A stretch of DNA of 26,827 nucleotides from a virus. Numbering within the stretch: the stretch's first letter is position 1; the number at the start of each line of letters is the position of its first letter. Shown in pieces: positions 5,563 through 22,595 of the stretch. Under the pieces are notes generated by a model. That model was not told where the DNA came from. It saw nothing but the letters and a program-made list of their open reading frames with translations, and made no database searches. The stretch is from the IMG/VR virus record IMGVR_UViG_3300049919_000087, positions 1 to 26,827 of that record; one strand, written 5' to 3'. Made by a program: the position numbers and the translations under genes.

Positions 5563-5580
5563 TAAAAATTCGTCGATGGA
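5516..5580 (+). repeat. Direct repeat ending at the terL start
   Basis: TTCGTCGATGGA occurs at 5516-5527 and 5569-5580, 53 bases apart, and both copies are followed within about 10 bases by GAATTAAA. The second copy includes the terL ATG. This could be a duplicated start region or repeated binding sites. Confidence 0.55.
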
Positions 5581-6925
5581 TTCGCCAAGAATTAAACTTT
5601 CAAAGAAACAAACTATTGCTTGGGAGTATTTGGAGGACAAAACAACTACTGAGCTATTCTATGGTGGTGCTGCTGGTGGTGGCAAATCTTATCTAGGTTG
5701 TATTTGGCACATTTACAGGCGAATGACTTACGCAGGGTCAAGAGGCTTAATAGGTAGAGCAAAGATAGCAAACTTAGAGCAATCAACTTTAGTAACCCTG
5801 TTTAAAGTAGCTAACATAATGGGCTACAAACAAGGGGTTCATTATAACTACAACTCTCAAAAGCACACAATTAATTGGAGCAACGGAAGCCAAACAATTC
5901 TTAAAGACCTGTTTCAATACCCAAGCGATCCCGATTTTATTTCATTAGGTTCAACAGAGTACACAGATGCGTTCATTGATGAGATTCCAGAAATATCATT
6001 AAAGGCTCTTGAAATAGTTTCAACAAGAATTAGGTGGATGATTAATGAATTTGATTTAGTTCCAAAGTTATTAGGCACAGGAAACCCAAGCGAAGGATTT
6101 ATTAAAGAAAGGTACATCAGTAAAAACGATTCGCCAGTTGAGTTACTTCCGCATCAAAAGTTTGTTCAAAGTTTAGTTAGTGAGAATCCTGATGAAGATT
6201 TCAAAAGATTGTATATTCAGCAGCTTGAAAGGTTGAGTTCTGAATACGATAAAGAGCGTTTGTTATTTGGTAATTGGGATGCCACTAGAGATGTTACTAA
6301 TCCATTTGCGTATCAATGGGATAATCAAAAACACATTTCAACCTCTGCGGTTTACGACTTTAAAAAACAGTTGGTTATATCGGTTGACTTTAACTTAATA
6401 CCTTTTTGTGTAACCTTTCGGCACTATTGGAAGGATGCGCAAGGCGACCATTACCATGTAATAGATGAAGCAGAAATTCAAAGGGGTTCAATCGATGAAA
6501 TGATTGAAAGGATAAGGGGTATCTATATGGTTAGTTTACCTTTTGCAATACTAACAGGTGATGCTATGGGGAATAGGGGTGATATAAGTCAAAGAGATAA
6601 CGCAAGCCTTTACATTCAGCTAATGCGTGGACTAGGGATGAAAGAAAGCCAGTTAAGGGTAAGAAACAACCCAACACACGACAATAGTAGAGTTGAGGTA
6701 AATTATACGTTAAGCCATTTTCCTGATTACAAAGTTCACCCAAAATGCAAGGGGTTGATTCGAGATTTTAATAATGTGCAGGTTGACGCATCGGGGTCAA
6801 TCGTAAAAGGGAAGCGAAGCGATATAAATCAACGTGCCGATTATATTGATACGGAAAGATACGCAATACACAATGTTTTAAAAGGATGGATTGACAACCA
6901 CCAACAAGTAAATAGATATATTTAA
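5576..6925 (+). CDS. terL: Terminase large subunit
   Basis: A 449-residue packaging motor. The ATPase half shows Walker A G-G-A-A-G-G-G-K-S at 30-38, Walker B with the catalytic acid in D-A-F-I-D-E at 131-136, and a T-G-N coupling motif at 168-170. G-N-W-D at 232-235 marks the junction to the nuclease half. That half has an RNase H-like fold with acidic sites in V-I-S-V-D-F-N (D271), G-D-A-M-G-N (328-333) and D-Y-I-D (422-425). It drives DNA into the prohead and cuts the concatemer. Length is typical of the family. The start ATG lies in one copy of a direct repeat (see findings). No internal break is visible, so it should be functional. Confidence 0.95.
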   Translation: MDSPRIKLSKKQTIAWEYLEDKTTTELFYGGAAGGGKSYLGCIWHIYRRMTYAGSRGLIGRAKIANLEQSTLVTLFKVANIMGYKQGVHYNYNSQKHTINWSNGSQTILKDLFQYPSDPDFISLGSTEYTDAFIDEIPEISLKALEIVSTRIRWMINEFDLVPKLLGTGNPSEGFIKERYISKNDSPVELLPHQKFVQSLVSENPDEDFKRLYIQQLERLSSEYDKERLLFGNWDATRDVTNPFAYQWDNQKHISTSAVYDFKKQLVISVDFNLIPFCVTFRHYWKDAQGDHYHVIDEAEIQRGSIDEMIERIRGIYMVSLPFAILTGDAMGNRGDISQRDNASLYIQLMRGLGMKESQLRVRNNPTHDNSRVEVNYTLSHFPDYKVHPKCKGLIRDFNNVQVDASGSIVKGKRSDINQRADYIDTERYAIHNVLKGWIDNHQQVNRYI

Positions 6926-6953
6926 CATATTAAAAACAAACTAATTAAATACT

Positions 6954-6961
6954 TAAATTTG
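6954..6961 (+). promoter_or_regulatory. TAnnTTTG box placed for a leaderless mRNA
   Basis: TAAATTTG ends four bases before the ATG at 6966. With the usual distance from -7 box to transcription start, RNA would begin at or next to the ATG. No good TTTG -33 box is seen. Confidence 0.55.
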
Positions 6962-6965
6962 CCTT

Positions 6966-8135
6966 ATGAGTTTCTGCGCACCTTGCACTAATATTGGACT
7001 GCTATACATCTGTTATGATGAATTGGAAATAGGGACGGTTGACAATGCCGATACCCTTTATTATATTTACTTTATGTCCCTTGCTAATGGGTTTGTTGTT
7101 AAGTACTCGGCTACTTCTGACAGTAACGGATTACTAACACTTGAATCAGCAGGCGGTTTTGTTTTATCAGAGAATACAGGTTATGAAATTTGGGTAAATC
7201 AAACAGACGACCAAAGCGACAAGGAGGAGTTTCAAATTAACGGAATATCAAACGAATGTTTTATGACAAATTTTAAAAGAGGCGTTAAGCCAACACCTAC
7301 ATCAACTGTTCAGAGAAATATCTATGTATCTTTAACAGGAATTTTAGGAAGCGCAACACCGACAACTAATTTAAAGAATTGGTTAGTATCAAAAGGAATA
7401 ACAAATCCTATTTTTTATCTTGCTGCGTTACTCGATAACGGAACAAATAGAACATCGATGCGCACATTGAATACAGAGTTAAATACGCTAGGAATAACAA
7501 AGCGAAGCGCAAATGTAACGCAGTCAACAAATGCTATTAATGAAGCGGATGCAGGTACACCAGCAGCTTACAATGTAGGTTGTGCAACAGCAGCAGAAAA
7601 ATTCACAAATTTTAGCCAAGAGTGGGAGTTTTGGAAATCAAACCCTTACGGAGATTTTGATACATTTAAAACCAACGATTTGGCTATTTATAATTGGTGT
7701 TTAGCAAACAATGTAAAATACGATATTTATGTAGCACGTTGTAAAGATGTTGCAGGGGTAAGCACACCTGAACAAGTTGCAAGTTGGCTAGTAACGTATC
7801 ACGATACTATTTATTTAGTTGACTATGTAAGTACTGAAAAATTTAATACCTATTCAGGATTAAGCGATGGAATTAAAACGCAAATTCAGCTATTTGCTAA
7901 TGCTGCTAAATTAGCTGGTAAGACACAGAAAATGCAAATTCTTTGGGCTAGTGAAGGGAATGTTGTTAGCGGAGTACCAACTAATATGTACACTTATTTT
8001 GTAGCAAACCCGACATTAATACCAGCATATAATACATTTAAAGCAGCTTACGATGCTTGGATATTTACAAATAAAACAAGTATTAATTTCTTAGGACAAA
8101 ATATTTACGCTTATGACAGCATTAAATCTTTATAA
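6966..8135 (+). CDS. Putative tail structural protein, TIM-barrel-like
   Basis: A 389-residue protein. The first ~108 residues, beginning M-S-F-C-A-P-C, look like a beta-sandwich virion domain (repeated short strands, Y-Y-I-Y-F, Y-E-I-W-V-N). From about 115 to the end, strands (N-I-Y-V-S-L, I-F-Y-L-A-A-L-L, Y-D-I-Y-V-A-R, I-Y-L-V-D-Y-V, M-Q-I-L-W-A-S-E-G) alternate with helices in the pattern of a TIM barrel such as a glycoside hydrolase. Two glutamates, in Q-E-W-E-F-W and W-A-S-E-G, are plausible active-site residues, but I cannot assign a family. It could be a surface or tail enzyme acting on host glycans. It may be translated from a leaderless mRNA and overlaps the next gene by 23 bases. 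Confidence 0.5.
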   Translation: MSFCAPCTNIGLLYICYDELEIGTVDNADTLYYIYFMSLANGFVVKYSATSDSNGLLTLESAGGFVLSENTGYEIWVNQTDDQSDKEEFQINGISNECFMTNFKRGVKPTPTSTVQRNIYVSLTGILGSATPTTNLKNWLVSKGITNPIFYLAALLDNGTNRTSMRTLNTELNTLGITKRSANVTQSTNAINEADAGTPAAYNVGCATAAEKFTNFSQEWEFWKSNPYGDFDTFKTNDLAIYNWCLANNVKYDIYVARCKDVAGVSTPEQVASWLVTYHDTIYLVDYVSTEKFNTYSGLSDGIKTQIQLFANAAKLAGKTQKMQILWASEGNVVSGVPTNMYTYFVANPTLIPAYNTFKAAYDAWIFTNKTSINFLGQNIYAYDSIKSL

Positions 8136-8436
8136 CTCAATAGCTTTAACTGTTGCCTTTTGTTTAGGATGGCGAACAGTAACATCAGAAGGACAACTAC
8201 TATACTTTATTAGGAAGTTCTTTGAAGATAGAATAGACAATAAAGCATTTGAGTTTATTGGCAAGCCATTTGTTCTTTGCATTACCTGCATGGCTTCAAT
8301 TTGGGGAGTAATTATTTACACATTACTAAATGAATTTTCATTAGTAGAGTGTATTGTTAGCTGTGTAAGTTCATCGTTCATTCAAACCTATATTTATAAA
8401 AAGTATGTTAAACTGGATAGAGAAAATAACGCTTAG
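8113..8436 (+). CDS. Membrane protein with CxxC motif
   Basis: A 107-residue protein with a hydrophobic N-terminus (about 5-20), then a charged stretch, then K-P-F-V-L-C-I-T-C-M-A-S-I-W-G at about 52-66 leading into a second membrane segment, and a basic tail. The C-x-x-C-M-A-S-x-W-G pattern is one I associate with small unnamed proteins in Flavobacteria phage tail operons, but I cannot give a function. It overlaps both neighbours (23 bases upstream, 32 downstream). Extra cysteines follow in C-I-V-S-C. Confidence 0.6.
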   Translation: MTALNLYNSIALTVAFCLGWRTVTSEGQLLYFIRKFFEDRIDNKAFEFIGKPFVLCITCMASIWGVIIYTLLNEFSLVECIVSCVSSSFIQTYIYKKYVKLDRENNA

Positions 8437-9010
8437 ACGAATCAATAAGAAGATGGGAGTTAAGGTTACGAAAGATAACCTTGTCTTGGCTTTTAACGAT
8501 GACGATGGGAATGGTTACTATAAATTTCCTAGTAACTTAGAAATGCCTTTATCAAGGCTTGCTAAAGTTAAGGAATATATAATGTGGTTAAGTCGAGGTG
8601 TAAGTAAAGAAGAATACCTAAAAGCAATTAATGCTGCAAAGCAGGGTTTGGAAGGTGGAATAAAGGATGGCAAAGGATTAGCTAAGATTGCTTTTGTGTT
8701 GCAGGAGTTGGAGAACAGGTGCGAAATGGTTATCCACGATGAACTATTTTACAACATAATTGCTTGTCAATTAGTGAGGCAAGATGAGAGCACGACAGAG
8801 TTTAATAATGAAATTCAGATGCAAAAGGTAGAGGCATTTAGGGATTTGGATAAAAAAAACGATACTTTTTTTTTGCACATACAAGAGTTTCTAGCGTTAT
8901 TCAATTTGTCGAATATTACGAAAACAAAATACGACACCTTAATGAAGGGGTCACAGTTAAGCAGGCAGGCAAAGGAAAAGATGCTGATATCTATATCAAA
9001 AAAACAATAG
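8405..9010 (+). CDS. Tail assembly chaperone, short form
   Basis: A 201-residue soluble helical protein directly upstream of the tape measure gene, the standard position of tail assembly chaperones (lambda gpG type). Its last codons run TCA-AAA-AAA-CAA-TAG: an A_AAA_AAA heptamer (8998-9004) followed by one codon and the stop. Ribosomes that slip by -1 here would continue to 9177 and make a longer form. Chaperones of this class coat the tape measure protein and recruit tail tube subunits, with short and long forms in a fixed ratio. Sequence alone would not identify it; the call rests on position and the frameshift site. Confidence 0.75.
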   Translation: MLNWIEKITLRRINKKMGVKVTKDNLVLAFNDDDGNGYYKFPSNLEMPLSRLAKVKEYIMWLSRGVSKEEYLKAINAAKQGLEGGIKDGKGLAKIAFVLQELENRCEMVIHDELFYNIIACQLVRQDESTTEFNNEIQMQKVEAFRDLDKKNDTFFLHIQEFLALFNLSNITKTKYDTLMKGSQLSRQAKEKMLISISKKQ

Positions 9011-9177
9011 CTAAGATGCGAAACGATTTAAAAGAATCGGTTTTAATAATAGCAGGTGGTAACACGCAAGAGTATGACAATATAATGAAAGGGAGTGTGG
9101 ATGATTTTTTAGTTAGGTACAAGTTATTTATTGAAGAAACAGAAAGAAAATGGCAACAACAACAGAGGAAATATTAG
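8405..9177 (+). CDS. Tail assembly chaperone, -1 frameshift product
   Basis: The long form expected from -1 slippage at A_AAA_AAA (8998-9004): 200 residues of the short form are joined to 57 residues from the -1 frame, which stops at TAG 9175-9177, giving 257 residues in total. The -1 frame runs on through ACA-ATA-GCT-AAG-ATG without a stop. In the gpGT model the T part touches tail tube subunits. The coding sequence overlaps the tape measure start (9150) by 28 bases. A weak hairpin (about 9021-9043, AAACGATT with AATCG-G-TTT) lies 17 bases after the slip site, farther than usual for a stimulator. Confidence 0.65.
8998..9004 (+). promoter_or_regulatory. -1 programmed frameshift slippery site
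   Basis: Seven As read A_AAA_AAA in the zero frame, followed by CAA and TAG. Both tRNAs can re-pair fully after slipping back one base. The frame they enter is open to 9177. See the chaperone entries. Confidence 0.75.
9016..9177 (+). CDS. T-like extension frame
   Basis: This open frame has an ATG at 9016 and 53 codons before TAG. Alone it would encode a small acidic/helical peptide ending W-Q-Q-Q-Q-R-K-Y. I interpret it as the downstream half of the chaperone fusion, because it lies exactly in the -1 frame of the preceding gene and is open back through the slip site. Independent initiation at 9016 is possible but less likely. Confidence 0.5.
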   Translation: MRNDLKESVLIIAGGNTQEYDNIMKGSVDDFLVRYKLFIEETERKWQQQQRKY

Positions 9178-11222
9178 TTGTTTATAAAGTAGAAGGGGCT
9201 AATCTAAAGGCAGGCTTACAGGAGATGCAAGCCGAGATGAAGAAAACTGAAGCTGCTGGGGTTTCTGCTGCTAAAGGTACGGAGGATGCTTTTCATAAAA
9301 CAGAAACTGCGACTAAATCATTAAGGACACAATTAAAAGAATTAAAATCACAGTTAGCAGAAGCAACTGACCCGAAGGAAGTAGAGAGATTAGCAAAGGC
9401 AGCAGGTACATTAAAAGATAAGTTGGACGATGCAACAGATGCAGCTAAAGTATTTGCATCTGAATCAAAGTTTGAACAGGTTGGTAATGCCTTAGGAAGC
9501 ATAGCAGGTAAATTAAGAAACCTAGACTTTAAAGGAGCAGCCGACCAAAGTAAGCTATTGTTAAATGTTGTAAAGTCAATTACATTTAAAGAAGCACTAA
9601 CAGGATTAAAAGACTTAGGTACAACTCTTTTAAATATAGGGAAGTCTTTAATTACAAATCCTTTATTTGTTGTTGGTGCAGCTATAGTTGGAATTGGTGT
9701 TGCGGTTGATAAAGTTGTAACATCGTTTAAAGACTTAGAACAACAATCAAAGACATTAACAGATGCTATTGATGCTCAAAACGAGGCATTGCTTACATAT
9801 AATCAAAGAGTTGAAGAATCTAACATAAAGCTGCGAGAATCTTTAGGTATTATTTCAAAATCGCAAGCAGAAGAACTAAGGAAGCAGGGTGATAATAATA
9901 AAGAAAGGTTAGAGCTTCAAAAAAGATTTAGCAAACAAATAGTTGATTTGGCTGTTGAAACCCAACAAGATTTAAGCAAATCAACAAAAGGTTATTTTAG
10001 TGAATCCTATACGGGTGATATAGAGGATTTAAATAGAAAGAAAAAGTTTAATCGAGACAGGTCTTTATTAGAGGCTGCTTTCACAAAGGAGTATATTCAA
10101 TTAATTAAGACGCAAAGAATTGAGGCAATAAACGCTAGAGTTGTATCAGGCGAAGAAGAAAGAAAAAAGGTTGTTGATATAGCTAAGAAAACCCATTCAG
10201 AAATAAAGAAAATTGAAACAGACAACACCGAGCAAGTAATAAAAGACCTTTACGACACAAGGGATATTGATGAATCGGTTTGGGCTGATAGGGTTAAGCG
10301 ATGGGAAGAAGGCGTTAAGGAATGGAGAGATGCAGAAGCAGAGATAAACGCAATAACAGAGCAATCAACTGAGAAGTATAAAAAGGAATTAGATGAACGT
10401 TTAGCTGCTGATATGCAAAGGGCTAAAAATAGAGAGGATTTAGAAAAAGAATCATTAAATACTGTTTTTTCTCTTTATAATTCAATAAATCAAATAAATA
10501 TAAACCGTATAGATGAACAAATCGCTAAATCAAATGAGCTTGCTGATTCTGAAATAGCAAACCTAGATAGACAATTAGATGCTAGACAAATAAGTCAAAA
10601 ACAATATGACGAAAAGAGATTAGCAATCGAAAAGAAGAAAGCCCAAGAAGAAGCAGATTTAAAAAAGAAACAATTTCAAATTGAAAAGGATGCGGCATTA
10701 GTTACAGCAACCATTAATACAGCGCAGGCGGTAACAAAAGCCTATGCACAAGGAGGGGCGTTTGGTGCAGCATTTGCAGCACTCGCATTAGCTGCTGGAC
10801 TAGCTGAAATAGCTGTTATCCAAAGTCAACCGACACCAAAGTTTGAAAAAGGTGGAAAGGTTAAAGGCAAAAGACATTACGCAGGTGGTACGATTATAGA
10901 AGCTGAAAAGGATGAGTTTGTGGTAAATAGAATCGATGCAATAAAGAACGAAAGTTTATTGGAAGCAATTAATAAAGGCAAGGCAAACCAACATATAGCC
11001 CAATACTATACAGCTCCTATATTAAAAGAGCAAGTTCAAAGAATGAATGATGAAAAGGATAAATCCTTTGCTCGTAACATAGCAAATTCGATTTTGTTAA
11101 ATCAATCTTTGAATGATAAGAATATATTAGAAAGTTTAAAGAGGTCAAGAAAAAACGACCAAGAGATTGCACATTTTTTAGTTAAGGAATTAGCTCCAAA
11201 AAACAATAAATATAATTGGTGA
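9150..11222 (+). CDS. Tail tape measure protein
   Basis: A 690-residue protein dominated by long coiled-coil segments rich in Ala, Glu, Lys and Gln (about 20-110, 195-480 and 460-530). Hydrophobic stretches occur at about 170-190 and 534-556. The C-terminal part has the classic end of Bacteroidetes tape measure proteins: A-V-I-Q-S-Q-P-T-P-K-F-E-K-G-G, then A-G-G-T-I-I-E-A-E-K-D-E-F-V-V-N (about 553-600). It sets tail length and leaves the tail with the DNA at infection. At the usual ~1.5 angstrom per residue the tail would be about 100 nm, a medium siphovirus tail. The ATG lies inside the chaperone extension frame, and its TGA overlaps the next ATG by one base. Confidence 0.93.
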   Translation: MATTTEEILVVYKVEGANLKAGLQEMQAEMKKTEAAGVSAAKGTEDAFHKTETATKSLRTQLKELKSQLAEATDPKEVERLAKAAGTLKDKLDDATDAAKVFASESKFEQVGNALGSIAGKLRNLDFKGAADQSKLLLNVVKSITFKEALTGLKDLGTTLLNIGKSLITNPLFVVGAAIVGIGVAVDKVVTSFKDLEQQSKTLTDAIDAQNEALLTYNQRVEESNIKLRESLGIISKSQAEELRKQGDNNKERLELQKRFSKQIVDLAVETQQDLSKSTKGYFSESYTGDIEDLNRKKKFNRDRSLLEAAFTKEYIQLIKTQRIEAINARVVSGEEERKKVVDIAKKTHSEIKKIETDNTEQVIKDLYDTRDIDESVWADRVKRWEEGVKEWRDAEAEINAITEQSTEKYKKELDERLAADMQRAKNREDLEKESLNTVFSLYNSINQININRIDEQIAKSNELADSEIANLDRQLDARQISQKQYDEKRLAIEKKKAQEEADLKKKQFQIEKDAALVTATINTAQAVTKAYAQGGAFGAAFAALALAAGLAEIAVIQSQPTPKFEKGGKVKGKRHYAGGTIIEAEKDEFVVNRIDAIKNESLLEAINKGKANQHIAQYYTAPILKEQVQRMNDEKDKSFARNIANSILLNQSLNDKNILESLKRSRKNDQEIAHFLVKELAPKNNKYNW

Positions 11223-13243
11223 TGTTTAGATTCTATTTGAATGATACTTTAGTTAGCGACCCAATTAATTGGGCTGATTTTACGGAAACGATAGAACGAC
11301 AAGCCGATATAAAAGGATTATTGCCTAAATATGAGCTTCAAATGTCTTTTACTTCTTCTGGGTATCAATTATTGTCAGAATTAAAACAATCAGAAGGATT
11401 TTGTACGCTAGTTAATCTAAGAATTGAACAGGCTTGCGATGGCGATAATTGGAGTACGATATTAAAAGGCTATATTATTATTTCACGCTGTATATTTCAT
11501 TTGAATAAATGTATAGTTGATTGCGATGTTGTTGATGATAACTATGGAGCTTTGATATTCAACAATAAATCTATTAAGACTTCTTTGGCTTCAGATAAGA
11601 GTAAGATGGGGATTGATATAACACCAGCTACATCTTCATTATTAAGGCTTTTTAATCCAGCAACAGGCACATATACTATACCAGCAGATGCAAGGGAGAG
11701 TTATAATGTTTATGAAGCATTTAAGTATCTTATTTCTTTTATGACTGATGGAAAGGTGGGGTTTGAAAGTGATTTTTTAACCACCTATGGAGTTCAGTTG
11801 TATCTTTTAACAGGAAAGAAACTAAGAACAAACGATTCAGGAAACTACCCAATTATATCTTTTACAGATTTGTTCCAAGAGGTTAATAAAAAGTTTAATA
11901 TTGGTTTTACGGTAATACAGTCGGGTGGTATTCCAACCATTAAGATAGAAAATATTGAATACTTTTATTCTTCAAACGATGTTCTAACATTACAAGATAT
12001 AGCTGATTTGCAAGAAAGTTTTAACCCTGAACTTTTGTATTCGGGTGTTAAGCTAGGAGGAACAACAGCTATCTACGACCCAACAATTCATTCTATTGTA
12101 CCCAGACAGTTTCAGGGATTCTTATTAGAGGAGTACTTCTTTCAAAATCAATGTAATTTAGATTCTCAATTAGATTTATCGGCTACTTATATCTTTGATA
12201 CAAATATTATCGAGGAATTAGCTTACACAAACCAAACGAATGAGAACTACGATGAAAATATATTTGTAATCGATGGACAACTTGTAGGACTTGATTTGTA
12301 TGCAACACAAACACTTGTTACAGGGGTTTCGCCAGCTTATACCTACAACTCATTTTTAACAAATGAGTATGCTAGTAGAAGATTTCAGTTTTTCGGTAAC
12401 ACAGCTTTGTATGAAGGACTAAACACTAGCGGATTCTTAGCAGAGCGCACAAACTACGATGATACAGGAAACTTAGCAACTGCGATTAATGGATGGAACA
12501 ATCCAGACTTTTATCAAGGTGATTTATTTGGGCTACCTGCTTGTGCGTTACAAACCTCTGCTGTATTAACAACTATTTTTGATGATGATTCAACAGCCCC
12601 TAACTACGATTCAGGTGGTAACTATGATAACGTAACAGGTAAGTACACAGCACCGATTGAGGGGTCTTACTTCTTTGAGTATAATGCACACTTTAAGATA
12701 TTAGCAGACCCACCATTAACAATAAGGAATAGAGCTTGTCGTTTTACTGTATATTTAAGAAGGTATAATTCTTTAAATGTGTTGCAAGAAGAATTTACAG
12801 AAGTTACACCAAGCGCATCTACATACGCAGATTTGCCAGCAGGTATTTATATAAGAACTATAAAAGAGTATTTTTATTGTGCTGCTGGTGATTATGTTAT
12901 AGCTGCTGCAAGGCTAGAAAGTGTGTGTGCTAATCCGCTACTTAATAATTCTGCTTTATTTGTAAACGTAACAAACGGTAGTACATTTACAGCACTTGGA
13001 ACAGCTAGCGGTGGAGGTGTTTTTCAAGAAGGAGCAAACGATGCAACATTTATAAGTAAGCTGCAATTTACTTATCCTGTTTCAAGGGAAAGCTATGACT
13101 TAATAAAGTCAGATTTAACAAAGGGGATTTTAGCAGGCATTGACGGCAATACAACTAAACGAGGATGGTTAAGAAAGACTGAAAGAAATTTAAGCACAGG
13201 ATTTATGAAGATTGAATTAATATCAAATAAACTTAATACATAA
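11222..13243 (+). CDS. Tail tip / baseplate protein with C1q-like domain
   Basis: A 673-residue protein immediately after the tape measure, where distal tail and hub proteins are encoded. The first ~130 residues look like a distal-tail-type beta domain (short strands, I-I-I-S-R). Residues about 440-590 resemble a C1q/TNF-like jelly roll: G-K-Y-T-A-P-I-E-G-S-Y-F-F at about 470-482, followed by C-R-F-T-V-Y-L-R-R and a late Y-F-Y-C-A-A-G-D-Y-V strand. Such domains often bind ligands as trimers. The frame is open to a TTG at 11216, but ATG 11222, overlapping the previous stop as TGATG, is the better start. The stop overlaps the next ATG (TAATG). Confidence 0.65.
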   Translation: MFRFYLNDTLVSDPINWADFTETIERQADIKGLLPKYELQMSFTSSGYQLLSELKQSEGFCTLVNLRIEQACDGDNWSTILKGYIIISRCIFHLNKCIVDCDVVDDNYGALIFNNKSIKTSLASDKSKMGIDITPATSSLLRLFNPATGTYTIPADARESYNVYEAFKYLISFMTDGKVGFESDFLTTYGVQLYLLTGKKLRTNDSGNYPIISFTDLFQEVNKKFNIGFTVIQSGGIPTIKIENIEYFYSSNDVLTLQDIADLQESFNPELLYSGVKLGGTTAIYDPTIHSIVPRQFQGFLLEEYFFQNQCNLDSQLDLSATYIFDTNIIEELAYTNQTNENYDENIFVIDGQLVGLDLYATQTLVTGVSPAYTYNSFLTNEYASRRFQFFGNTALYEGLNTSGFLAERTNYDDTGNLATAINGWNNPDFYQGDLFGLPACALQTSAVLTTIFDDDSTAPNYDSGGNYDNVTGKYTAPIEGSYFFEYNAHFKILADPPLTIRNRACRFTVYLRRYNSLNVLQEEFTEVTPSASTYADLPAGIYIRTIKEYFYCAAGDYVIAAARLESVCANPLLNNSALFVNVTNGSTFTALGTASGGGVFQEGANDATFISKLQFTYPVSRESYDLIKSDLTKGILAGIDGNTTKRGWLRKTERNLSTGFMKIELISNKLNT

Positions 13244-14397
13244 TGGAATACATACCAAACCAACCTGTGTCGCTTAGTGTCGATACAAGTTACTTTAACG
13301 GAGTAGTTAATTGTTCATCAGATGAAGTCCCCTATGTTCAGATAGTTGACAACACAGATGTAACACAATTTCAAGTGTCGATAGACCCCTGTCCTGATGC
13401 GATAGAGGTATTAGAAAACCCCGACTTTGCAACTGCGGATGGATGGGACTTACAGGCTAATTGGGCTTTTGGTACTAACAGCCTTTGTGCAACAGAGGCA
13501 ACAGCATTGGTTGAAAGCACAGATATACTAGCACAGGGCTATTATAAATTTACTGTTGTGGTAACTTCTTTTTCAGGCGATGGTATTGATTTTGATTTCG
13601 ATGGGGTTACTTTAGCTACAATAACAGCAGTAGGCACTTATGAGCTTTATGGATTCGCAGGTGTTGCAGGTGCAACGATAGAGTTGATTCCAACAGGAAC
13701 TACAAGTATTTGCTTTAGTCAAATATCAGGCTTTGAAATTAATACTGATGTAGAGATTTTTGTAATGGATGAAAACCAAGTAGAAATAATCAATATCGAC
13801 AATGTTTCAAATCCTGAATACTTCACTATTGTTAAAAATACAGTAACAGTTGAAATTGCTTGGGCTTCGCTAGGAATAGCTAATCAATGCGCATACTTAA
13901 TTGTAATTAATCCATGTAACGGTTTTCAGCTTATATCAAATATGTTCAGCATTGGCGATTATGCCGATAAGTGTACGATACTAATTAACGCTTGTAACAA
14001 CAATGATTCTTTAGGATTTATTTTTACTGATAGTGGTTTTTCTCCAAGAATAAGACTAGAGGCAAAGTTAAGACAGTCGAGCTACACGAACGAGAAAACA
14101 GTTTACGAAACTTCACTAGGTCAAACTCAGGTTTACAATTTTAAGCGTAAGAAATTTAAAACATTAGCTATTGATTTGCAGCCTGAATATGTGCATGATT
14201 TTTTAAGTACCTTATCAGGTTATGATAATCTTTATTTATCTAATATAGCTTACTATGTAGAGGATTCAGAATACAATGTTATTTATAGTTCATCGTCTGA
14301 TAACTTCGGAACTGTGAATATAACAGTAGGTTTAAAAACTCAAAATGTTAAAAATATTCTATGCTCAAATAACGAGAATAGCTGTAATTTAGCATAA
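13243..14397 (+). CDS. Tail tip accessory protein, carbohydrate-binding-like
   Basis: A 384-residue beta-rich protein. Residues about 57-165 read like a carbohydrate-binding jelly roll: E-N-P-D-F-A-T-A-D-G-W-D-L at 58-70, followed by strands and F-D-F-D-G-V. A second beta region (about 170-240) and a cysteine-containing C-terminal part follow, with paired cysteines in V-N-C and I-D-P-C. It is a virion protein by context, sandwiched between tail tip and tail tube genes, and may contribute to receptor binding. I do not recognise an exact family. It is coupled to the previous gene by a one-base overlap. Confidence 0.55.
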   Translation: MEYIPNQPVSLSVDTSYFNGVVNCSSDEVPYVQIVDNTDVTQFQVSIDPCPDAIEVLENPDFATADGWDLQANWAFGTNSLCATEATALVESTDILAQGYYKFTVVVTSFSGDGIDFDFDGVTLATITAVGTYELYGFAGVAGATIELIPTGTTSICFSQISGFEINTDVEIFVMDENQVEIINIDNVSNPEYFTIVKNTVTVEIAWASLGIANQCAYLIVINPCNGFQLISNMFSIGDYADKCTILINACNNNDSLGFIFTDSGFSPRIRLEAKLRQSSYTNEKTVYETSLGQTQVYNFKRKKFKTLAIDLQPEYVHDFLSTLSGYDNLYLSNIAYYVEDSEYNVIYSSSSDNFGTVNITVGLKTQNVKNILCSNNENSCNLA

Positions 14398-14473
14398 TAA
14401 TTTATTGATTCCAAAAGAGGTGGTATTGTGATTCAGCCATAAAAAGGATTACAACAGAATAAAAATTATAAAC
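14398..14473 (+). promoter_or_regulatory. Leader of the tail tube gene
   Basis: A 76-base leader separates this gene from the previous one in an otherwise tightly packed operon. It contains GAGGT (14417-14421), TCAGCC (14433-14438) and ATAAAAAGG (14439-14447), all three of which also occur in the leader of the major capsid gene (22621-22667) in a different order. No TAnnTTTG box is visible. It may regulate translation or stabilise the mRNA. Confidence 0.35.
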
Positions 14474-15034
14474 ATGGCAAATTGTATAAATTACGACTGT
14501 CAAGACGATTTAGGAACGCACACCAACAATGACTGCGGTGAGGAATTACTGGCAGGTATTAGCGGAGTAGTGTTGCTAGAATGTAGTACACAGTTAACAG
14601 ACCCATCGAGTGCTTCTCAAATCAATGCAGAAATAGCAGCAGGTAGAGCGACATTGATTGATGGTATTAAAGTCGGTTTTGATGCACCAAGCCCTGTTGA
14701 AGTTGAAAGCAATACAGTAGGAGCAACTCAAAAATTGACCACATATAACAGACAAGGCACATTGATAGACGGTAATGTAAGCGTAGCTAACAATACTTTC
14801 TACAATAAATTGTTTGGTGGCAGGACTTTTGGAGGTGCTATTTTCTACATTAAAGGTACAGAAGAAAGCACAGGAGGCGCAATGATTGCGTTTGTTGATG
14901 CAGCAATTAACTTCACAGGTGGATTGCCAGTTAAGAATAACAATGATGAGAATATGACTTATCAAGGTTCTTTTAAATGGCGAAAAAAGGATATGCCAAC
15001 ATTGGCAGCAGCCCCGACAGGAATATTTAGTTAA
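14474..15034 (+). CDS. Probable major tail tube protein
   Basis: A 186-residue protein with repeated beta segments and a Gly-rich centre (F-G-G-R-T-F-G-G-A-I-F-Y), ending in K-W-R-K-K-D-M-P. Size and fold type suit a tail tube subunit. Its own leader and a strong terminator directly after it suggest a separate, abundant mRNA, as expected for a tube protein. There is no recognisable signature, so the call rests on position and regulation. An N-terminal cysteine cluster (C4, C9, C21) is uncommon for this role. An alternative is a tail terminator or decoration protein. Confidence 0.55.
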   Translation: MANCINYDCQDDLGTHTNNDCGEELLAGISGVVLLECSTQLTDPSSASQINAEIAAGRATLIDGIKVGFDAPSPVEVESNTVGATQKLTTYNRQGTLIDGNVSVANNTFYNKLFGGRTFGGAIFYIKGTEESTGGAMIAFVDAAINFTGGLPVKNNNDENMTYQGSFKWRKKDMPTLAAAPTGIFS

Positions 15035-15038
15035 ACAG

Positions 15039-15072
15039 AAAGCCCTAACCAAAATTGGGGCTTTTGTTTTTT
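15039..15072 (+). terminator. Terminator after the tail module
   Basis: AAAGCCC (15039-15045) pairs with GGGCTTT (15058-15064), with extra CAA/TTG pairing inside, followed by a T-run to about 15074. It closes the tail operon and lies immediately before the promoter of the glycosyltransferase cassette. Confidence 0.75.
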
Positions 15073-15076
15073 TTAT

Positions 15077-15084
15077 TATCTTTG
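15077..15084 (+). promoter_or_regulatory. Promoter of the glycosyltransferase cassette, leaderless
   Basis: TATCTTTG ends five bases before the ATG at 15090. A TTG at 15055-15057, within the terminator, is 19 bases upstream and can act as the -33 box. Predicted transcription starts at or beside the ATG. Confidence 0.6.
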
Positions 15085-15089
15085 TGCAA

Positions 15090-15884
15090 ATGAACAAAGG
15101 CATTATTATTCTTTGCATGAGGAAACCGCAGTACGCTTGTGCTGCTTTTAATTTAGCCTTATCGATAAAACACTATACCCCAAACATTCATATTACATTA
15201 CTATCAGATGGTATTCACAACAAAGCATTAAGACCTGAACACTTAGGGGTTTTTAATGAAGTGAAGCTAATAAAAGAAGATTCGGTTTGTGAAGCAAAGA
15301 TTAGTGTAGGCGATTATGTTAACTACAAGCAAGCATTATTTATTGATGCTGATTCTATATGTGTAGCCGATTTAACACCTTTATTTGATAAGCTAAAAGG
15401 CTCTTTTAAATCAAATGTAATAGATGGTTACACGAATTGGACTAGCGTAGAAAACTTTAGAAAGTACTTTAAAACAGAACCACATCAAACAATTAATTCA
15501 AGTTGGTTTTACTTTGAAAACAACAAGGTGTTAAATCAGGCTAAGTTATACTACAAACGTGGCTTCGACAGGCTTAATTTAAGCGAGAAATGGGGAGGGC
15601 ATTTGCCTGATGAAATGTTTTTAAACGCTGCTTTGTCAAAGCTAGAAATGGACGCAAGAATAGATTTTAATTTAATGTTTTTTGATGAAAAAAAGAACGT
15701 GGCTATTTCAAAGATAACTGAAGATTATTACTTTGCTACATTTTACGGCAATAGAAAAAACAGCAGAGTTGATTTACAGGAGTGGTACGATAAAATGATG
15801 TTTAAGATTTGTTCAGCTATTGGGATTGAGCATAGGTTTAAACTAGGTGAGATTTTGGCGCATAAATTAGTAAATGAAAAATGA
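15090..15884 (+). CDS. Glycosyltransferase 1, GT-A type
   Basis: A 264-residue protein with the layout of GT8-like nucleotide-sugar transferases: an N-terminal strand-helix repeat (G-I-I-I-L-C, I-H-I-T-L-L-S-D), then Y-K-Q-A-L-F-I-D-A-D-S-I with the metal-binding D-A-D at 86-88, then an acceptor region (S-S-W-F-Y-F, about residues 139-144; H-L-P-D-E-M-F further on). It should transfer a sugar in the cytoplasm. First of three glycosyltransferases; its stop overlaps the next gene as ATGA. A GTG at 15084 could extend it by two residues, but ATG 15090 fits the promoter. The acceptor may be a virion protein or a host glycan. Confidence 0.75.
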   Translation: MNKGIIILCMRKPQYACAAFNLALSIKHYTPNIHITLLSDGIHNKALRPEHLGVFNEVKLIKEDSVCEAKISVGDYVNYKQALFIDADSICVADLTPLFDKLKGSFKSNVIDGYTNWTSVENFRKYFKTEPHQTINSSWFYFENNKVLNQAKLYYKRGFDRLNLSEKWGGHLPDEMFLNAALSKLEMDARIDFNLMFFDEKKNVAISKITEDYYFATFYGNRKNSRVDLQEWYDKMMFKICSAIGIEHRFKLGEILAHKLVNEK

Positions 15885-16102
15885 TAGTAGATGCATACGG
15901 TAATGATATAAGCGGACAAGTAGCAGAAAAAATAAATACTGTAAAAGAAGCTGATGTAAAAAACCTAAAAGAGGTCTGTTTATTAATTGAGAAAACTGCT
16001 TTATGGTATGACTATGAAAATTTTTTTATCAATGAAACAATTTTAGAAGAGATTTTAAAAAAATGCAATAACCTTTTAAATGATCGCAATAACAAGTATT
16101 AG
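15881..16102 (+). CDS. Small hypothetical protein in the glycosyltransferase cassette
   Basis: A 73-residue acidic, mostly helical protein that I do not recognise. It starts with M-I-V-D-A-Y-G-N-D and contains a helix with V-K-N-L-K-E-V-C. Both ends overlap glycosyltransferase genes (4 bases upstream, 23 bases downstream), so it is made with them, perhaps as a partner protein. Confidence 0.6.
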   Translation: MIVDAYGNDISGQVAEKINTVKEADVKNLKEVCLLIEKTALWYDYENFFINETILEEILKKCNNLLNDRNNKY

Positions 16103-16793
16103 CCCAACACATATAAATGCTGATATTCAAGGAAAGGCTGTTGCTGGATGGATTGAATTAGGGATGAAAGTAGTATCAGTTAACTCTAAAGCTGAGTGCG
16201 ACTTATTAAAATCAAAGTACAAAGATGTTCAGTTTTATTCAACCGAAAGAACGCTAGAAATGACCTATGGAAAGCCTTATGTCCAAATTTCTGCAATATT
16301 TGACATTTGCAAATCTTTAGAAGAAGATAATTTTTGCTTAATTAACTCCGATATTGAATTAAAAAGCGATGTAGCTACGATTGGAAAGATAGAGTTGTTA
16401 ATGGCAAATGAGCTGCTAATGTGCAATAGAATAAACCATAATGGGGATTATAAGGGCGCAAAGTATTTAGCTGGTATTGATGTTTTCTTTATTCATAAAA
16501 GATTTTTACGTTTGTTTCCACAGACGATGCACGCAATAGGTATGACTTTTGTTGATTACTTCATTCCTTACACAGCTTTAAATTCAGGAATTCAAACTAC
16601 ATTTATTGAACAAGAAATTGCATACCATTTAAACCACGCAGCGCAATATTCAAGAGATAATTGGTTAAAGTCTGGCAGGTTCTTTCTTTGGGAGAGCAAC
16701 TTGTATCAATTTTCTGATACTCATGGAGTAGGTAAAATGAGCGAATTTGTAAAGAACTTTATTTATAACGCATCTAAAACTAAAAAAGTATGA
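16080..16793 (+). CDS. Glycosyltransferase 2, GT-A-like
   Basis: A 237-residue protein. Residues about 83-94 (D-N-F-C-L-I-N-S-D-I-E-L) place an N-S-D-I motif at the end of a buried strand, as the DxD-type metal site of GT-A transferases with Ser between. The surroundings fit: A-G-W-I-E-L-G-M-K-V-V-S-V-N at the N-terminus, and K-Y-L-A-G-I-D-V-F-F-I-H after the motif. The acceptor region is Tyr/His-rich. The exact family is uncertain and the classic D-x-D is not fully met, so activity is inferred. It overlaps the lipoprotein gene by 4 bases (ATGA). Confidence 0.6.
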   Translation: MIAITSISPTHINADIQGKAVAGWIELGMKVVSVNSKAECDLLKSKYKDVQFYSTERTLEMTYGKPYVQISAIFDICKSLEEDNFCLINSDIELKSDVATIGKIELLMANELLMCNRINHNGDYKGAKYLAGIDVFFIHKRFLRLFPQTMHAIGMTFVDYFIPYTALNSGIQTTFIEQEIAYHLNHAAQYSRDNWLKSGRFFLWESNLYQFSDTHGVGKMSEFVKNFIYNASKTKKV

Positions 16794-16987
16794 AAACAAT
16801 ACTTGTTTTTCTATTATCATTTAGCCTTTATTCTTGTAAGAAATGCACCGAATGTGTACTGTATAATTATTCAGATGCTTCAAAACCACAAGGAAACATA
16901 TCGCTATTTGAATTTTGTGGTACATCAAAAGAAATAAAGAGTCTAGAGAAGAGTAGTAATTCACTACAAGAAATAAAATGTAAATGA
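16790..16987 (+). CDS. Small lipoprotein
   Basis: A 65-residue secreted lipoprotein: basic start M-K-T, hydrophobic core I-L-V-F-L-L-S-F-S-L, and lipobox L-Y-S-C with the lipidated Cys at 16. The mature part begins C-K-K-C-T-E-C, and two more cysteines lie near the end (C43, C64), so disulfides are likely in the periplasm or at the surface. Phage lipoproteins often change the host receptor or block superinfection, which would fit a glycan-modifying neighbourhood. It overlaps both glycosyltransferase genes by 4 bases, so it belongs to the cassette. Confidence 0.75.
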   Translation: MKTILVFLLSFSLYSCKKCTECVLYNYSDASKPQGNISLFEFCGTSKEIKSLEKSSNSLQEIKCK

Positions 16988-17661
16988 CTTCTATATTTAT
17001 AAAGAGTTACCCAAAGGATTTCAAGTGGCTTAACTACTGCCTTAAATCTATCTGTAAATATATTACAGGTTATTCAGATATTGTTTTAATGCTTGATGAA
17101 GGTAGCAACACATCTTTATTTGAACTTACTGAGCTACCTAATAAGATAAAAATTGAATGGGTTAAAAAAGAAGGCGATGGTTATATTTTTCAGCAGTATT
17201 GTAAACTAACAGCACATCATTATACACAAGCTGACAAAATATTATTTATTGATTCTGATTGTGTTTTTACATCTCCTTTAGACTTATCTAAACTACCTGA
17301 ACTTCCTGAAATGCTTTACACTCCGTATGAGTTAGTGGGCGATGCGATATGTTGGAAAGAATGCACAGAAAAGGTAATTAAGCAATCTGTTGAGTTTGAA
17401 TTTATGAGGCGAAATGGATTAATATACCATCGTTCAACATTAGAAAACTTTGAGAGTTTTGTTGGTGATTTACAAACCTATGTATTAAGCCAAAACAGGT
17501 TTTCAGAGTTTAACGCTTTAGGTGCTTATGCTTGGTTTAATGAAAGAGAAAAATACAAATGGGTAAACACATCAATAGATTATTTTGGAGAGCCTATAGT
17601 TAAACAAATGTGGTCGCACGGTGAATTTAATAGTAAAGAAATTGAAAAATTAATAAACTAA
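16984..17661 (+). CDS. Glycosyltransferase 3, GT-A-like (DUF6492-like)
   Basis: A 225-residue protein with A-D-K-I-L-F-I-D-S-D-C-V-F at about 83-95: the metal-binding D-S-D (90-92) ends a hydrophobic strand, the hallmark of GT-A enzymes. The N-terminus (K-S-Y-P-K-D-F-K-W-L and I-V-L-M-L-D-E-G) and the acceptor loop with W-F-N-E-R-E-K-Y-K-W fit DUF6492-type transferases. It probably acts with the two other transferases in one pathway. It is the last transferase before the methyltransferase, with a 3-base gap. Confidence 0.7.
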   Translation: MTSIFIKSYPKDFKWLNYCLKSICKYITGYSDIVLMLDEGSNTSLFELTELPNKIKIEWVKKEGDGYIFQQYCKLTAHHYTQADKILFIDSDCVFTSPLDLSKLPELPEMLYTPYELVGDAICWKECTEKVIKQSVEFEFMRRNGLIYHRSTLENFESFVGDLQTYVLSQNRFSEFNALGAYAWFNEREKYKWVNTSIDYFGEPIVKQMWSHGEFNSKEIEKLIN

Positions 17662-17664
17662 ATA

Positions 17665-18327
17665 ATGGACAGTTTTGATATAACAAAAGAGGGTTACGCA
17701 GTAATCCCAAACGATACCCATATTTCTAAATGGGTAAAAGAAAACCAAAGGTTAGATTTCGACCAAAACGCATTGCCTTTTATATTAGAACATATCAATA
17801 AAAATGATTTTGTAATTGATTGCGGAGCTAATATTGGGGCTTACTCTTTTGCCTTTCTTAATAAAGGAGCTTTTGTACTTTCATTTGAGCCTAATAAAGA
17901 AGCGTTTGATTGCTTAAAATACAATCTAAAAGACTATCCAAATTCGCACATTTTTAACTATGCTGTTGGTGCTTTTTCAGGCAAAGTAAATGTAATTAAA
18001 TCGCCGAATGCAGGGGCTTCTATTTGTGAAAGGTCAAAGGATGGTGATATTGAATTAAGGGCTATTGATAGCTTTAATTTAGAAAGGGTTGACTTTATTA
18101 AAATCGATGTAGAGGGGTTTGAATTAGATGTACTAAGGGGTGCGGTAAAGACAATTCAAAAGTTCAAACCTAAGTTATACATTGAAATAAACGAGGGAAC
18201 ACTTGCAAAGATGGGTGTTACACCAAAAAATGTATTTGATTTTTTAGACTTATTCAAATACGAGTATTCAAACATTTACAAAGAGCAAAAGATGGAAGGT
18301 TTGCAGTATGATATTATTTGCTGGTAA
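17665..18327 (+). CDS. FkbM family methyltransferase
   Basis: A 220-residue SAM-dependent methyltransferase. Motif I is F-V-I-D-C-G-A-N-I-G-A-Y at 49-60, F-E-P-N at 74-77 binds SAM, and V-D-F-I-K-I-D-V-E-G-F-E at about 142-153 is the typical FkbM end motif. FkbM enzymes methylate O- or N-atoms of sugars and other small molecules. With three glycosyltransferases beside it, the likely substrate is the glycan they build. Stop at 18327; the micropeptide promoter follows. Confidence 0.85.
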   Translation: MDSFDITKEGYAVIPNDTHISKWVKENQRLDFDQNALPFILEHINKNDFVIDCGANIGAYSFAFLNKGAFVLSFEPNKEAFDCLKYNLKDYPNSHIFNYAVGAFSGKVNVIKSPNAGASICERSKDGDIELRAIDSFNLERVDFIKIDVEGFELDVLRGAVKTIQKFKPKLYIEINEGTLAKMGVTPKNVFDFLDLFKYEYSNIYKEQKMEGLQYDIICW

Positions 18328-18363
18328 ATATTTAACATTTAGGGTATTAATCTTTTTTAAAAG

Positions 18364-18371
18364 TAAATTTG
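18364..18371 (+). promoter_or_regulatory. Leaderless-type promoter for the micropeptide
   Basis: TAAATTTG ends four bases before ATG 18376. A TTTA at 18338-18341 is about 22 bases upstream and could be a weak -33 box. Transcription would begin at or next to the ATG and could also carry the portal operon. Confidence 0.5.
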
Positions 18372-18375
18372 TATT

Positions 18376-18477
18376 ATGGAAATAGTAAAGAATTGTGGAG
18401 GCAAAAAAAGCAAGGGTTCTTGTGGAACTTGGGCTGGTGCAACACAGGGTCAAACGACTATAAAAATAGCTGCATAA
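18376..18477 (+). CDS. 33-residue cysteine micropeptide
   Basis: A complete frame of 33 codons. It begins M-E-I-V-K-N-C-G-G-K-K-S, continues K-G-S-C-G-T-W-A-G-A-T-Q-G-Q and ends T-T-I-K-I-A-A. Two cysteines (7 and 16) flank a basic Lys-rich stretch. It has a well-placed TAnnTTTG box, and its TAA is followed directly, with no gap, by the portal ATG, so translation of the two should be coupled. It is Gly/Lys/Ser-rich and has no membrane segment. Function unknown: it could be a structural micropeptide, a regulator, or only a translated leader for the portal gene. Confidence 0.55.
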   Translation: MEIVKNCGGKKSKGSCGTWAGATQGQTTIKIAA

Positions 18478-20310
18478 ATGACAAACGAGGAAATTCTTTC
18501 ACTTGCTGAAAAAATAATACTATCAGTAAGTAAAAATGCGTATCAGGGTAAAGATAAAAAGATTGTAGGTGTTCACGACCTTTATAAACAGTCGGTTGAA
18601 ATGGCAACACATATCCGATACCACGCAGTAAAAGGGGAGTTTCCTGATTTGTTATTTTCTAACAGAAGTCCAAATCAAACCGAAGCTGAAGCGAAGTATA
18701 TAAAAGCTAATTACAAACAATATACATTACCTGAATTTGTTGACTATGTAAATACAATTACAAGACCTTTTGGCGATGGGAATTGGGCTATTGACTACAA
18801 AGAAGATAAAGAGATTTACAAGACTTCTGAGAATACATTTCAGTCTTATGTAGAAAAAGAACTGCCTATTTATGGGAGTTTAGAATCGTTTGTCAAGACA
18901 ATACTGCCAACAATAAAATCAATCGATGCAAATGGATTTATAGCAGTTAGACCAAAAGAAATTGACTATATAGATAGTGAAGATGGGGCTATTGTTGACG
19001 AAAGCCAATTATACAAACCTACTATATTTTATTATAAGAGTGAGAATGTAATTGACTATAAACACAACGAATATTACTTATTTTTAAGCAGCGAAAAGAG
19101 CTTAATACAGCATGGTGATAAGCAAGTAAGAGATGGGTTAATATTTGAGTTATACACCAAAGATGGTGTTTATTTCTTTAAGCAGATAGGTAAAAAAGCG
19201 GATAATAAATTTCAGCAGGTTTTATTTTATGAGTTCAATGGGGTTTGTCCTGTTGAGCAATTAAAAGGAATACCAGCGATTGAAGAAGATGAAATTCTTT
19301 GGATGTCGCCTTTTATCTTTGGTGTTGACTTGCTAGATTTAGTTGCAGTTAATTCTAATTGGTTACAGTTTTCGGTTAATAAATGTGTGTTCCCAATGGC
19401 TGTTATGTATGGTAGTCCTTGCGAGTTTAAAGATGAGAATGGAGGAAGTTGTTATAACGGAACAATAAACGGATTCATAAACGATTTACCATACCAAAAA
19501 AGTTGTCCTAGTTGTCATGGTTCAGGGCTAAAAGGTAGATTAAGTCCACTAGGAACGCTTTTAATTAAGCCAACAACAGCAACAGCAGAAGGTGAAACAA
19601 ATTCATCACAAGCCCCATTGTCTTATGTTAGCCCTGAAACAACTACTTTAGAATTTATTGAAAAGAAGATTGATAAGGACACGATTAAAGCAAGGCAAAT
19701 TTTAAAGCTACGAAATAGAAATAGCATTGTTAATGGTCAGCCAATAACAGCCACCGAAGTGTTTGATGATAGTAAGGGAATGACAGCTTTTATAAAGCCT
19801 ATTGCAGACCAAACATTTAATTTATATGAGTTTGCTATAAAACACATTGGGGAGCAGCGTTATGGGGAAAACTTTGAAATGCCTAACTTAACTTACCCTA
19901 AATCTTATGACTTTAAAAATGCAGAAGATTATTTAATTGACTTAACGACATCGATTGAAAAAGGTCTTGATATTTCATTTATTAAGATGTTGATGTTACA
20001 GTATGTAAATGCTTACTATGGAGATAGTGAAAAGACATCGAATATATTTAAGTTGGTTTTAAAGGCAAATCGATTATTCGGATTAAGGCAAGACGAAATT
20101 AATTTAAAGTTAGCTAATGGAACTGTGGCGAAGTGGGAATCTGTTTTAAATGATTCCATTTTAAACTTTATTTCTGATTTAATTAATGAAAGTGAGGAGT
20201 TTCTAAATACGGAAATTGAAACGCAAGTTAAATCGGTGCAAGACAAAGCTAAAGAGGTGGCGACTGCTATTGGTGCTGGTGTTGTTGATGATATTTATAA
20301 AACAGTTTAA
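18478..20310 (+). CDS. Portal protein
   Basis: A 610-residue protein at the head of the morphogenesis block. The N-terminal half has the helical/beta pattern of portals (W-L-Q-F-S-V-N-K, F-G-V-D-L-L-D), and a long helical C-terminal half ends near K-D-K-A-K-E-V-A-T. The ring of 12 copies forms the DNA channel and the terminase docking site. A cysteine set, C315, C325, C343 and C346 (the last within C-P-S-C-H-G-S-G), looks like a zinc ribbon inside the wing region, as seen in other Bacteroidetes phage portals. The call depends on order (portal-MuF-scaffold-capsid) as well as sequence. No frameshift is visible. Confidence 0.8.
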   Translation: MTNEEILSLAEKIILSVSKNAYQGKDKKIVGVHDLYKQSVEMATHIRYHAVKGEFPDLLFSNRSPNQTEAEAKYIKANYKQYTLPEFVDYVNTITRPFGDGNWAIDYKEDKEIYKTSENTFQSYVEKELPIYGSLESFVKTILPTIKSIDANGFIAVRPKEIDYIDSEDGAIVDESQLYKPTIFYYKSENVIDYKHNEYYLFLSSEKSLIQHGDKQVRDGLIFELYTKDGVYFFKQIGKKADNKFQQVLFYEFNGVCPVEQLKGIPAIEEDEILWMSPFIFGVDLLDLVAVNSNWLQFSVNKCVFPMAVMYGSPCEFKDENGGSCYNGTINGFINDLPYQKSCPSCHGSGLKGRLSPLGTLLIKPTTATAEGETNSSQAPLSYVSPETTTLEFIEKKIDKDTIKARQILKLRNRNSIVNGQPITATEVFDDSKGMTAFIKPIADQTFNLYEFAIKHIGEQRYGENFEMPNLTYPKSYDFKNAEDYLIDLTTSIEKGLDISFIKMLMLQYVNAYYGDSEKTSNIFKLVLKANRLFGLRQDEINLKLANGTVAKWESVLNDSILNFISDLINESEEFLNTEIETQVKSVQDKAKEVATAIGAGVVDDIYKTV

Positions 20311-21212
20311 TGACCTTTGCTGAAATATTAAAAGAGAAAAACGACAGGTTAAAGTCTGTTCCTTTGGCTATGCAGACCGCATTAGAGAAACAGCAATCAA
20401 AGATATTAAGTCAGTTAACATCGGATTTATCTAGCCTTACAACTGTTAATGGTAAGATAGAAATAACGGCATCGAATCTAAATCAAATTGCAAAGATTTC
20501 AGACGATTTAAAAAAGATTTTTTTATCAAAGGATTATGTTAACGCTGTCAGGGAGTTTGCAAGGGAGTTTAACAATCAGGCAACAATTAATACAAAATTA
20601 ATTGAATCGGGGTTTGGTGCAATTGAAACACCAATAGCAAGCAAAGCGTATATCGAAATTGCGAAGCGTTCAGCAATAGAAAGTTTAGTAGGCGCACCGA
20701 TTGACAAAGAATTTATTAAGCCAATTCAAGGTTTGTTAGAAAACGCTGTTGTTAATGGTGCTACGTTTGCAGAAACAGTTGAATCGATAGGGCAGTTTGT
20801 AAATGGAACGAGTGAAGATGTTTCAAGAATAGCAAAGTATGCAAGACAGATTACAAATGATTCCTTTAGTATTGCGGACAGGTCTTTTACATCGATTGTT
20901 TCGGATGCTTTAGATAATGATTGGTACTACTTTTCTGGAACTGAAAAAGATAGCACAAGATGCTTTTGCGCTGCAAGGGTGGGGAATTATTATCATTACA
21001 AAGAGATTGAATCGTGGGGTGATGGTAAGAATTTAGATGATTGTGATTTAGGTGGTGGTGAATGGGCTGGGGAGATAGCAGGAACTAACTCAATAACTAT
21101 TTATTCTTACTTAGGTGGTTATAATTGTTTGCATTCATTAATACCTGTTAGTGAATTTGGCGTACCTGATTCAGATATTGACAGAGCGAAAAGGTTAGGA
21201 TTTATAAAATAA
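20310..21212 (+). CDS. Minor head protein, MuF/SPP1 gp7-like
   Basis: A 300-residue protein. It overlaps the portal stop by one base (TAATG), as in SPP1- and Mu-type head operons. The N-terminal ~200 residues are helical. The C-terminal ~90 residues show the MuF-type arrangement: a S-T-R-C-F-C pair (about 216-221), W-A-G-E-I-A-G-T-N, then G-G-Y-N-C-L-H-S-L (about 270-278) and a final D-I-D-R-A-K-R helix. The protein enters the prohead with the portal and may be injected or help early head assembly. Cys/His clusters may bind metal. Confidence 0.75.
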   Translation: MTFAEILKEKNDRLKSVPLAMQTALEKQQSKILSQLTSDLSSLTTVNGKIEITASNLNQIAKISDDLKKIFLSKDYVNAVREFAREFNNQATINTKLIESGFGAIETPIASKAYIEIAKRSAIESLVGAPIDKEFIKPIQGLLENAVVNGATFAETVESIGQFVNGTSEDVSRIAKYARQITNDSFSIADRSFTSIVSDALDNDWYYFSGTEKDSTRCFCAARVGNYYHYKEIESWGDGKNLDDCDLGGGEWAGEIAGTNSITIYSYLGGYNCLHSLIPVSEFGVPDSDIDRAKRLGFIK

Positions 21213-21216
21213 ATAG

Positions 21217-21224
21217 TATCTTTG
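21217..21224 (+). promoter_or_regulatory. Leaderless-type promoter in the head module
   Basis: TATCTTTG ends four bases before the ATG at 21229, in the 16-base gap after the minor head gene. No good -33 box is visible, but TTAG at 21195-21198 is 18 bases upstream. Confidence 0.45.
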
Positions 21225-21228
21225 TTGT

Positions 21229-21703: not shown

Positions 21704-21705
21704 AA

Positions 21706-22539: not shown

Positions 22540-22553
22540 CTACTAATATAATT

Positions 22554-22595
22554 AAAGCCGACTAAAAATTTAACATATGGTTTTTAGTCGGCTTT
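22554..22595 (+). terminator. Terminator between scaffold and capsid
   Basis: A perfect 15-bp stem, AAAGCCGACTAAAAA (22554-22568) with TTTTTAGTCGGCTTT (22581-22595), has a 12-base loop and a following T-rich tract. It lies just upstream of a TAnnTTTG box, so the scaffold and capsid transcripts can be set at different levels. Confidence 0.85.

Follow-up and report, generated by a model that had tools for sequence, protein, structure and literature searches.

Few recoding events of tailed phages are as widely conserved as the frameshift of the tail assembly chaperone gene. The locus described here raises the question of whether a gene lying just before a tape measure protein (TMP) gene is read in two frames and, if so, where the frame changes and what slips there. 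The DNA analysed, hereafter the window, is the linear IMG/VR record IMGVR_UViG_3300049919_000087, an AT-rich stretch of 26,827 bases. Because its terminase resembles those of Flavobacterium, Cellulophaga, Bacteroides and Polaribacter phages, the host of this uncultured phage is probably a Bacteroidota bacterium. An earlier note on this DNA had named the gene a tail assembly chaperone gene and placed a programmed -1 frameshift at a run of seven As (A7) near the end of its zero frame.

A relative was found by searching with the 347-aa protein encoded at 22710–23753, which retrieved IMG/VR contig 3300020044_007102 (85% identity). The first 600 bases of this contig encode the homologous protein from its residue 58, at 66% identity, and a second contig from the same sample covers residues 1–140 only. 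When viral contigs were scanned with protein queries, with alignments and with one DNA pattern, this single relative covering the overlap of the two frames came up, and every conservation figure given below refers to this one pair of genomes.

Two reading frames before the tape measure gene

The features of the locus are as follows.

8113–8436, plus strand: small CxxC-containing protein of 107 aa whose gene overlaps the 5' end of gene 8405–9010; its position resembles that of DUF1360 genes in other Bacteroidota phages
8405–9010, plus strand: zero-frame ORF of 201 aa, the putative gpG-like short product; 66% identical to the relative over residues 58–200, with constraint persisting after T9
8851–8853, plus strand: last -1 frame stop (TAA) before the extension, the upstream limit of the frame change
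8866–8874, plus strand: run of nine Ts (T9), the proposed slip site; T_TTT_TTT (8866–8872) and T_TTT_TTG (8869–8875) are both in phase
8872–9177, plus strand: putative gpT-like -1 frame extension of 101 codons plus TAG; free of stops and conserved in the stretch starting at T9, with 45% identity to the relative across 103 alignment columns
8998–9004, plus strand: A7 heptamer named in the earlier note, in the correct X_XXY_YYZ phase; absent from the relative
9016–9018, plus strand: ATG in the -1 frame, also present in the relative, from which a 53-aa product may start independently
9150–11222, plus strand: TMP gene, 690 aa; its product matches PHROG tape-measure families with E values down to 4e-8 and shares 40% identity with that of the relative

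On re-reading, the coordinates and frames given for the end of the zero frame proved correct: its last codons are TCA (8996) AAA AAA CAA TAG (9008–9010), with A7 ending one codon before the stop. The location just before the TMP gene, likened in the earlier note to lambda G/GT, also held, as the TMP ORF starts at ATG 9150 and overlaps the end of the -1 extension by 28 nt.

If only the zero frame is coding, then the -1 frame within it is expected to be interrupted as it is in other genes. Within zero-frame genes elsewhere, -1 stops occur at a density of 12% per codon, and when 25 other genes of the window were scanned in 6115 segments of 52 codons, every segment contained at least one. In gene 8405–9010, the -1 frame holds 21 stops between 8434 and 8851 and then none until 9175; it is thus open over 8854–9174, and in the relative it is open from 8806 (window coordinates). 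From just after the TAA at 8851–8853, 52 codons upstream of A7 and inside the zero-frame ORF are stop-free. Under simple substitution models and for the single genome pair, on which the recoding and descent figures depend, synonymous recodings that kept the zero-frame protein left the -1 frame open over the overlap in 0.23% of cases for the window and 0.09% for the relative, and simulated descent with only the zero frame coding produced an open -1 frame with the observed similarity in 0.5% of runs. The zero frame after T9, for its part, is more open and conserved than a lone coding -1 frame would give (P 0.00025, or 0.025%).

The comparison of the two genomes points the same way. The -1 extension is kept in the relative (KMRNDLKESVLIIA...SVDDFLVRYKLFIEE versus KMRSDLKESLMIIA...SVEDFLIKYKLFIDE), and the -1 frame segment upstream of A7 is similar as well (RYFFFAHTRVSSVIQFVEYYENKIRHLNEG in the window, RYFFFEHSRIFGSIQLVEYFQKRVRNLNDR in the relative); -1 frame similarity jumps at codon 8854. 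Differences at the three codon positions show a third-position bias upstream (0.24/0.15/0.54), are flattened in the overlap (0.24/0.33/0.39) and shift to the -1 pattern downstream (0.23/0.49/0.33), although the flattening by itself is not significant (Fisher P 0.10). Since the openness and similarity of the -1 frame and the openness and conservation of the zero frame each exceed the single-frame expectation, the overlap 8875–9007 appears to code in both frames. On these comparisons, gene 8405 very likely has a -1 frame extension before the TMP gene, with two predicted products of 201 and 257 aa.

The proposed slip site and the agent of the shift

The frame change is bounded by the TAA at 8851–8853 and the zero-frame stop, and the constraint puts its position near the start of this interval. 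Between the stop at 8851 and the ATG at 9016, the -1 frame contains no ATG, GTG or TTG, and none was seen in the relative either; a frame change is therefore needed at or beside T9. This run, in the zero-frame context ACT TTT TTT TTG, sits where the stop-free -1 stretch starts, ~130 bases upstream of A7, and is both the longest T run of the window and its sole T run of nine. It is exact in the relative, within an identical block of 18 nt (AACGATACTTTTTTTTTG), an identity that is not unique in the alignment, which has another block of 17 nt upstream. A slip at T_TTT_TTT would give 156 + 101 = 257 aa, and a slip at A7 would give a protein of equal length with a different middle. The earlier note had the -1 reading open to the TAG at 9175–9177, with 57 added residues; the openness and the stop stand, whereas the extension comes to about 101 residues, because the conserved slippery run is T9 at 8866–8874. 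We consider it likely that T9 is the slip site and that products of 201 and 257 aa result, a judgement that leaves aside whether ribosome or polymerase slips. The recoding event is of an ordinary kind and in all likelihood real; compared with the earlier note, its site lies about 130 bases farther upstream and its extension grows from 57 residues to about 101.

Another in-phase heptamer, A_AAA_AAC at 8854–8860 (site 8852–8860), directly follows the last -1 stop, a few bases ahead of T9, and is absent from the relative. The window phage thus has three homopolymer slip candidates within about 150 nt, T9 alone being common to the relative.

Standard translation of gene 8405 would yield the short form of 201 aa. 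In a minority of expression events, reading would step one base back at T9 (8866–8874), most likely through ribosomes slipping on U_UUU_UUU, whereupon the -1 frame would be read to the TAG at 9175–9177 to give the protein of 257 aa. If the parallel with lambda gpG/gpGT holds, TMP binding would fall to the short form and recruitment of the tail tube protein to the extension. We infer the slipping itself, the ribosome as its agent and the ratio of the products.

That the ribosome rather than the polymerase slips on T9 is only slightly more likely. UUY codons and all-pyrimidine heptamers are prone to frameshifting in E. coli (PMC4066793), and a ribosomal -1 slip on U_UUU_UUU fits this shiftiness as well as the direction of the shift and the gene class. 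Downstream of T9, RNA structure was not significant in either genome (z -0.3 and -1.4), and a comparison of the window with the relative revealed no shared SD-like element upstream of the run. A stimulatory element is not strictly required for frameshifting.

Alternatively, the slip at T9 could be made by RNA polymerase, which would insert one extra U, and a fraction of mRNAs would then code the 257-aa protein in one frame. The site and the products would be identical to those of the ribosomal reading, while the step would be transcriptional. We regard this as possible, though not probable. The run is a homopolymer conserved in both genomes, and its length of nine is that at which selection against slippage at A or T runs has been seen in many bacterial genomes (PMC1088944). 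Shigella mxiE, which uses a U run for transcriptional slippage, and Thermus dnaX, with nine As, likewise have a homopolymer in an expressed gene and two products (PMC1088944), but they are not phage tail genes, and at T9 such slippage is only a candidate process. The two-ORF chaperones of Flavobacterium phage 11b and Cellulophaga phages phi10:1, phi17:1 and phi18:1 also show a long homopolymer where G and T meet, ahead of the TMP gene; they differ in having A runs of 8 to 10 with varying frame sign and proteins not detectably related to those here (hhalign of the -1 domain against 11b-like T domains, P 0.055, not significant). The junctions in these and a further phage are listed below.

Phage 11b (L003), 18173–18181: A9, second frame -1
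phi10:1 (L004), 28234–28241: A8, second frame +1
phi17:1 (L143), 883–892: A10, second frame -1
phi18:1 (L144), 884–892: A9, second frame +1
phi12:1: A9, second frame +1

Since the second frame lies at -1 in some of these Flavobacteriia phages and at +1 in others, one ribosomal mechanism would not explain their A8 to A10 junctions, which are compatible with polymerase slippage, or with error or instability in run length. In phi10:1 and phi18:1 the second ORF has its own ATG before the run, and phi17:1, otherwise almost identical to phi18:1, has one more A at the junction. In Croceibacter phage P2559S, the chaperone is split at A8 (L150, 14747–14754), and in relatives (P2559Y, PDS1, FpV9 and others) this VKKK lies within an uninterrupted ORF; the split is possibly an indel or slippage. 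Given these single-ORF relatives, sequencing or replication indels may explain part of the A-run pattern, which weakens the case for the polymerase. It is weakened further by the direction of the shift at T9, -1 as is usual when tail chaperone genes frameshift, and by the fact that T7 would suffice for the ribosome. A literature search found no study of the chaperone frameshift in Bacteroidota phages.

Alternatives to a shift at T9

If no frameshift takes place, then the 53-aa ORF from ATG 9016 would be a separate small gene, on which ribosomes reinitiate once they have terminated on the 201-aa gene. The ATG, which lies 5 nt past that stop in the window and 8 nt past it in the relative, is conserved along with its reading frame. 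Left unexplained, however, is the open and similar -1 frame that extends over ~45 codons upstream of the ATG in both genomes without a usual start codon. We judge reinitiation improbable as a substitute for the frameshift at T9; in addition to it, reinitiation at ATG 9016 may occur.

Still less probable is the reading of the earlier note, a programmed -1 slip at A_AAA_AAA (8998–9004) with 57 added residues. The heptamer is in phase, one codon ahead of the stop, and some local folding is found 3' of it in the window (z -2.1). In the relative, however, this fold is absent and the position reads TCC GAA AAA TAA (GAAAAAT); the -1 extension is thus kept and A7 is lost, the latter an outcome that the earlier note had itself set against its reading. 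As a shift at A7 leaves the -1 constraint, which begins ~45 codons upstream in both genomes, unexplained, A7 as the programmed site is not supported. Runs of at least seven As are common in the AT-rich window (about 18 separate ones), and the heptamer alone is therefore weak evidence. It is possible that A7 serves as a minor second slip site, in the window phage only.

A single ORF of about 257 aa, its apparent split being due to one base miscounted in the T run during sequencing or assembly, is hardly credible: one extra T would join the frames, and ten other Bacteroidota phages have single ORFs of 235–258 aa at the equivalent place, but T9 and the frame relation are identical in the window and the relative (66% protein identity, separate contigs), the zero frame after T9 is open and conserved (the P of 0.00025 above, for a coding -1 frame alone), and the stops of the two zero frames nearly coincide.

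Putative chaperone identity and gene neighbourhood

We infer that gene 8405 is tail-assembly-chaperone-like from its position before the TMP gene, its two-product layout and its full length of 257 aa. Position and layout agree with the identity proposed in the earlier note; homology to known chaperones was tested and not found, and the role is argued by analogy for this reason. Neither product matched known chaperones, Pfam, PHROG or PDB, and a tblastn search of phages and plasmids with the 201-aa protein gave no match. GTDB protein and pattern scans, with 802 whole-genome searches (including the order and phylum of a Flavobacterium genome), gave no convincing homologue. Similarity to the pre-TMP proteins of Arctus_1 and P12002L was not significant, and a phage sequence with a related TMP (L142) is without such a gene before it. 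The AF2 model of the 201-aa protein was unusable (pLDDT 40), that of the -1 frame was all helical (pLDDT 65), and the models were too poor to compare folds.

With lambda G/GT (PMC5009743; Xu, Hendrix and Duda 2004 cited there), the locus shares overlapping frames right before the TMP gene, the second at -1, and a short and an extended product. It differs in its slip site, T9 (T_TTT_TTT) as against GGGAAAG in lambda, in its overlap of about 45 codons and in having no detectable sequence relation, and the layout here is read from sequence alone. The single-ORF Bacteroidota chaperones (PDS1 gp56, FpV9, TCUEAP2) have full lengths of 235–258 aa, against 257 aa here; in some Bacteroidota phages the chaperone gene follows a small DUF1360-type gene, and PDS1 gp56 has the equivalent place, between such a gene and the TMP gene; they differ in being one continuous ORF with no frame change, and their sequence relation to the products here is not significant. 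Neither is the similarity of the 107-aa protein at 8113–8436 to DUF1360 proteins.

The structural gene order (5576–23753) is unusual, running from the terminase through the TMP block to a methyltransferase (17665), a portal-like protein (18478) and a probable major capsid protein (22710). The last of these, the 347-aa protein at 22710–23753, is so assigned without a confirming family match. The protein after the TMP (11216–13243) has a PHROG virion structural match and a C1q-like stretch at residues 464–494 (Pfam 24.1 bits, cutoff 23.7). Rfam and tRNA scans found nothing.

The case shows that a heptamer may look canonical and lie close to a stop, and yet be misleading if a better site, a conserved run, is present farther upstream. 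It is a rather doubtful but conceivable prospect that the ratio of short to extended chaperone would be set by polymerase slippage at a nine-base homopolymer, and that this would be common among Flavobacteriia phages. The T9 run permits a clear test of whether the ribosome or RNA polymerase is the agent of the shift.
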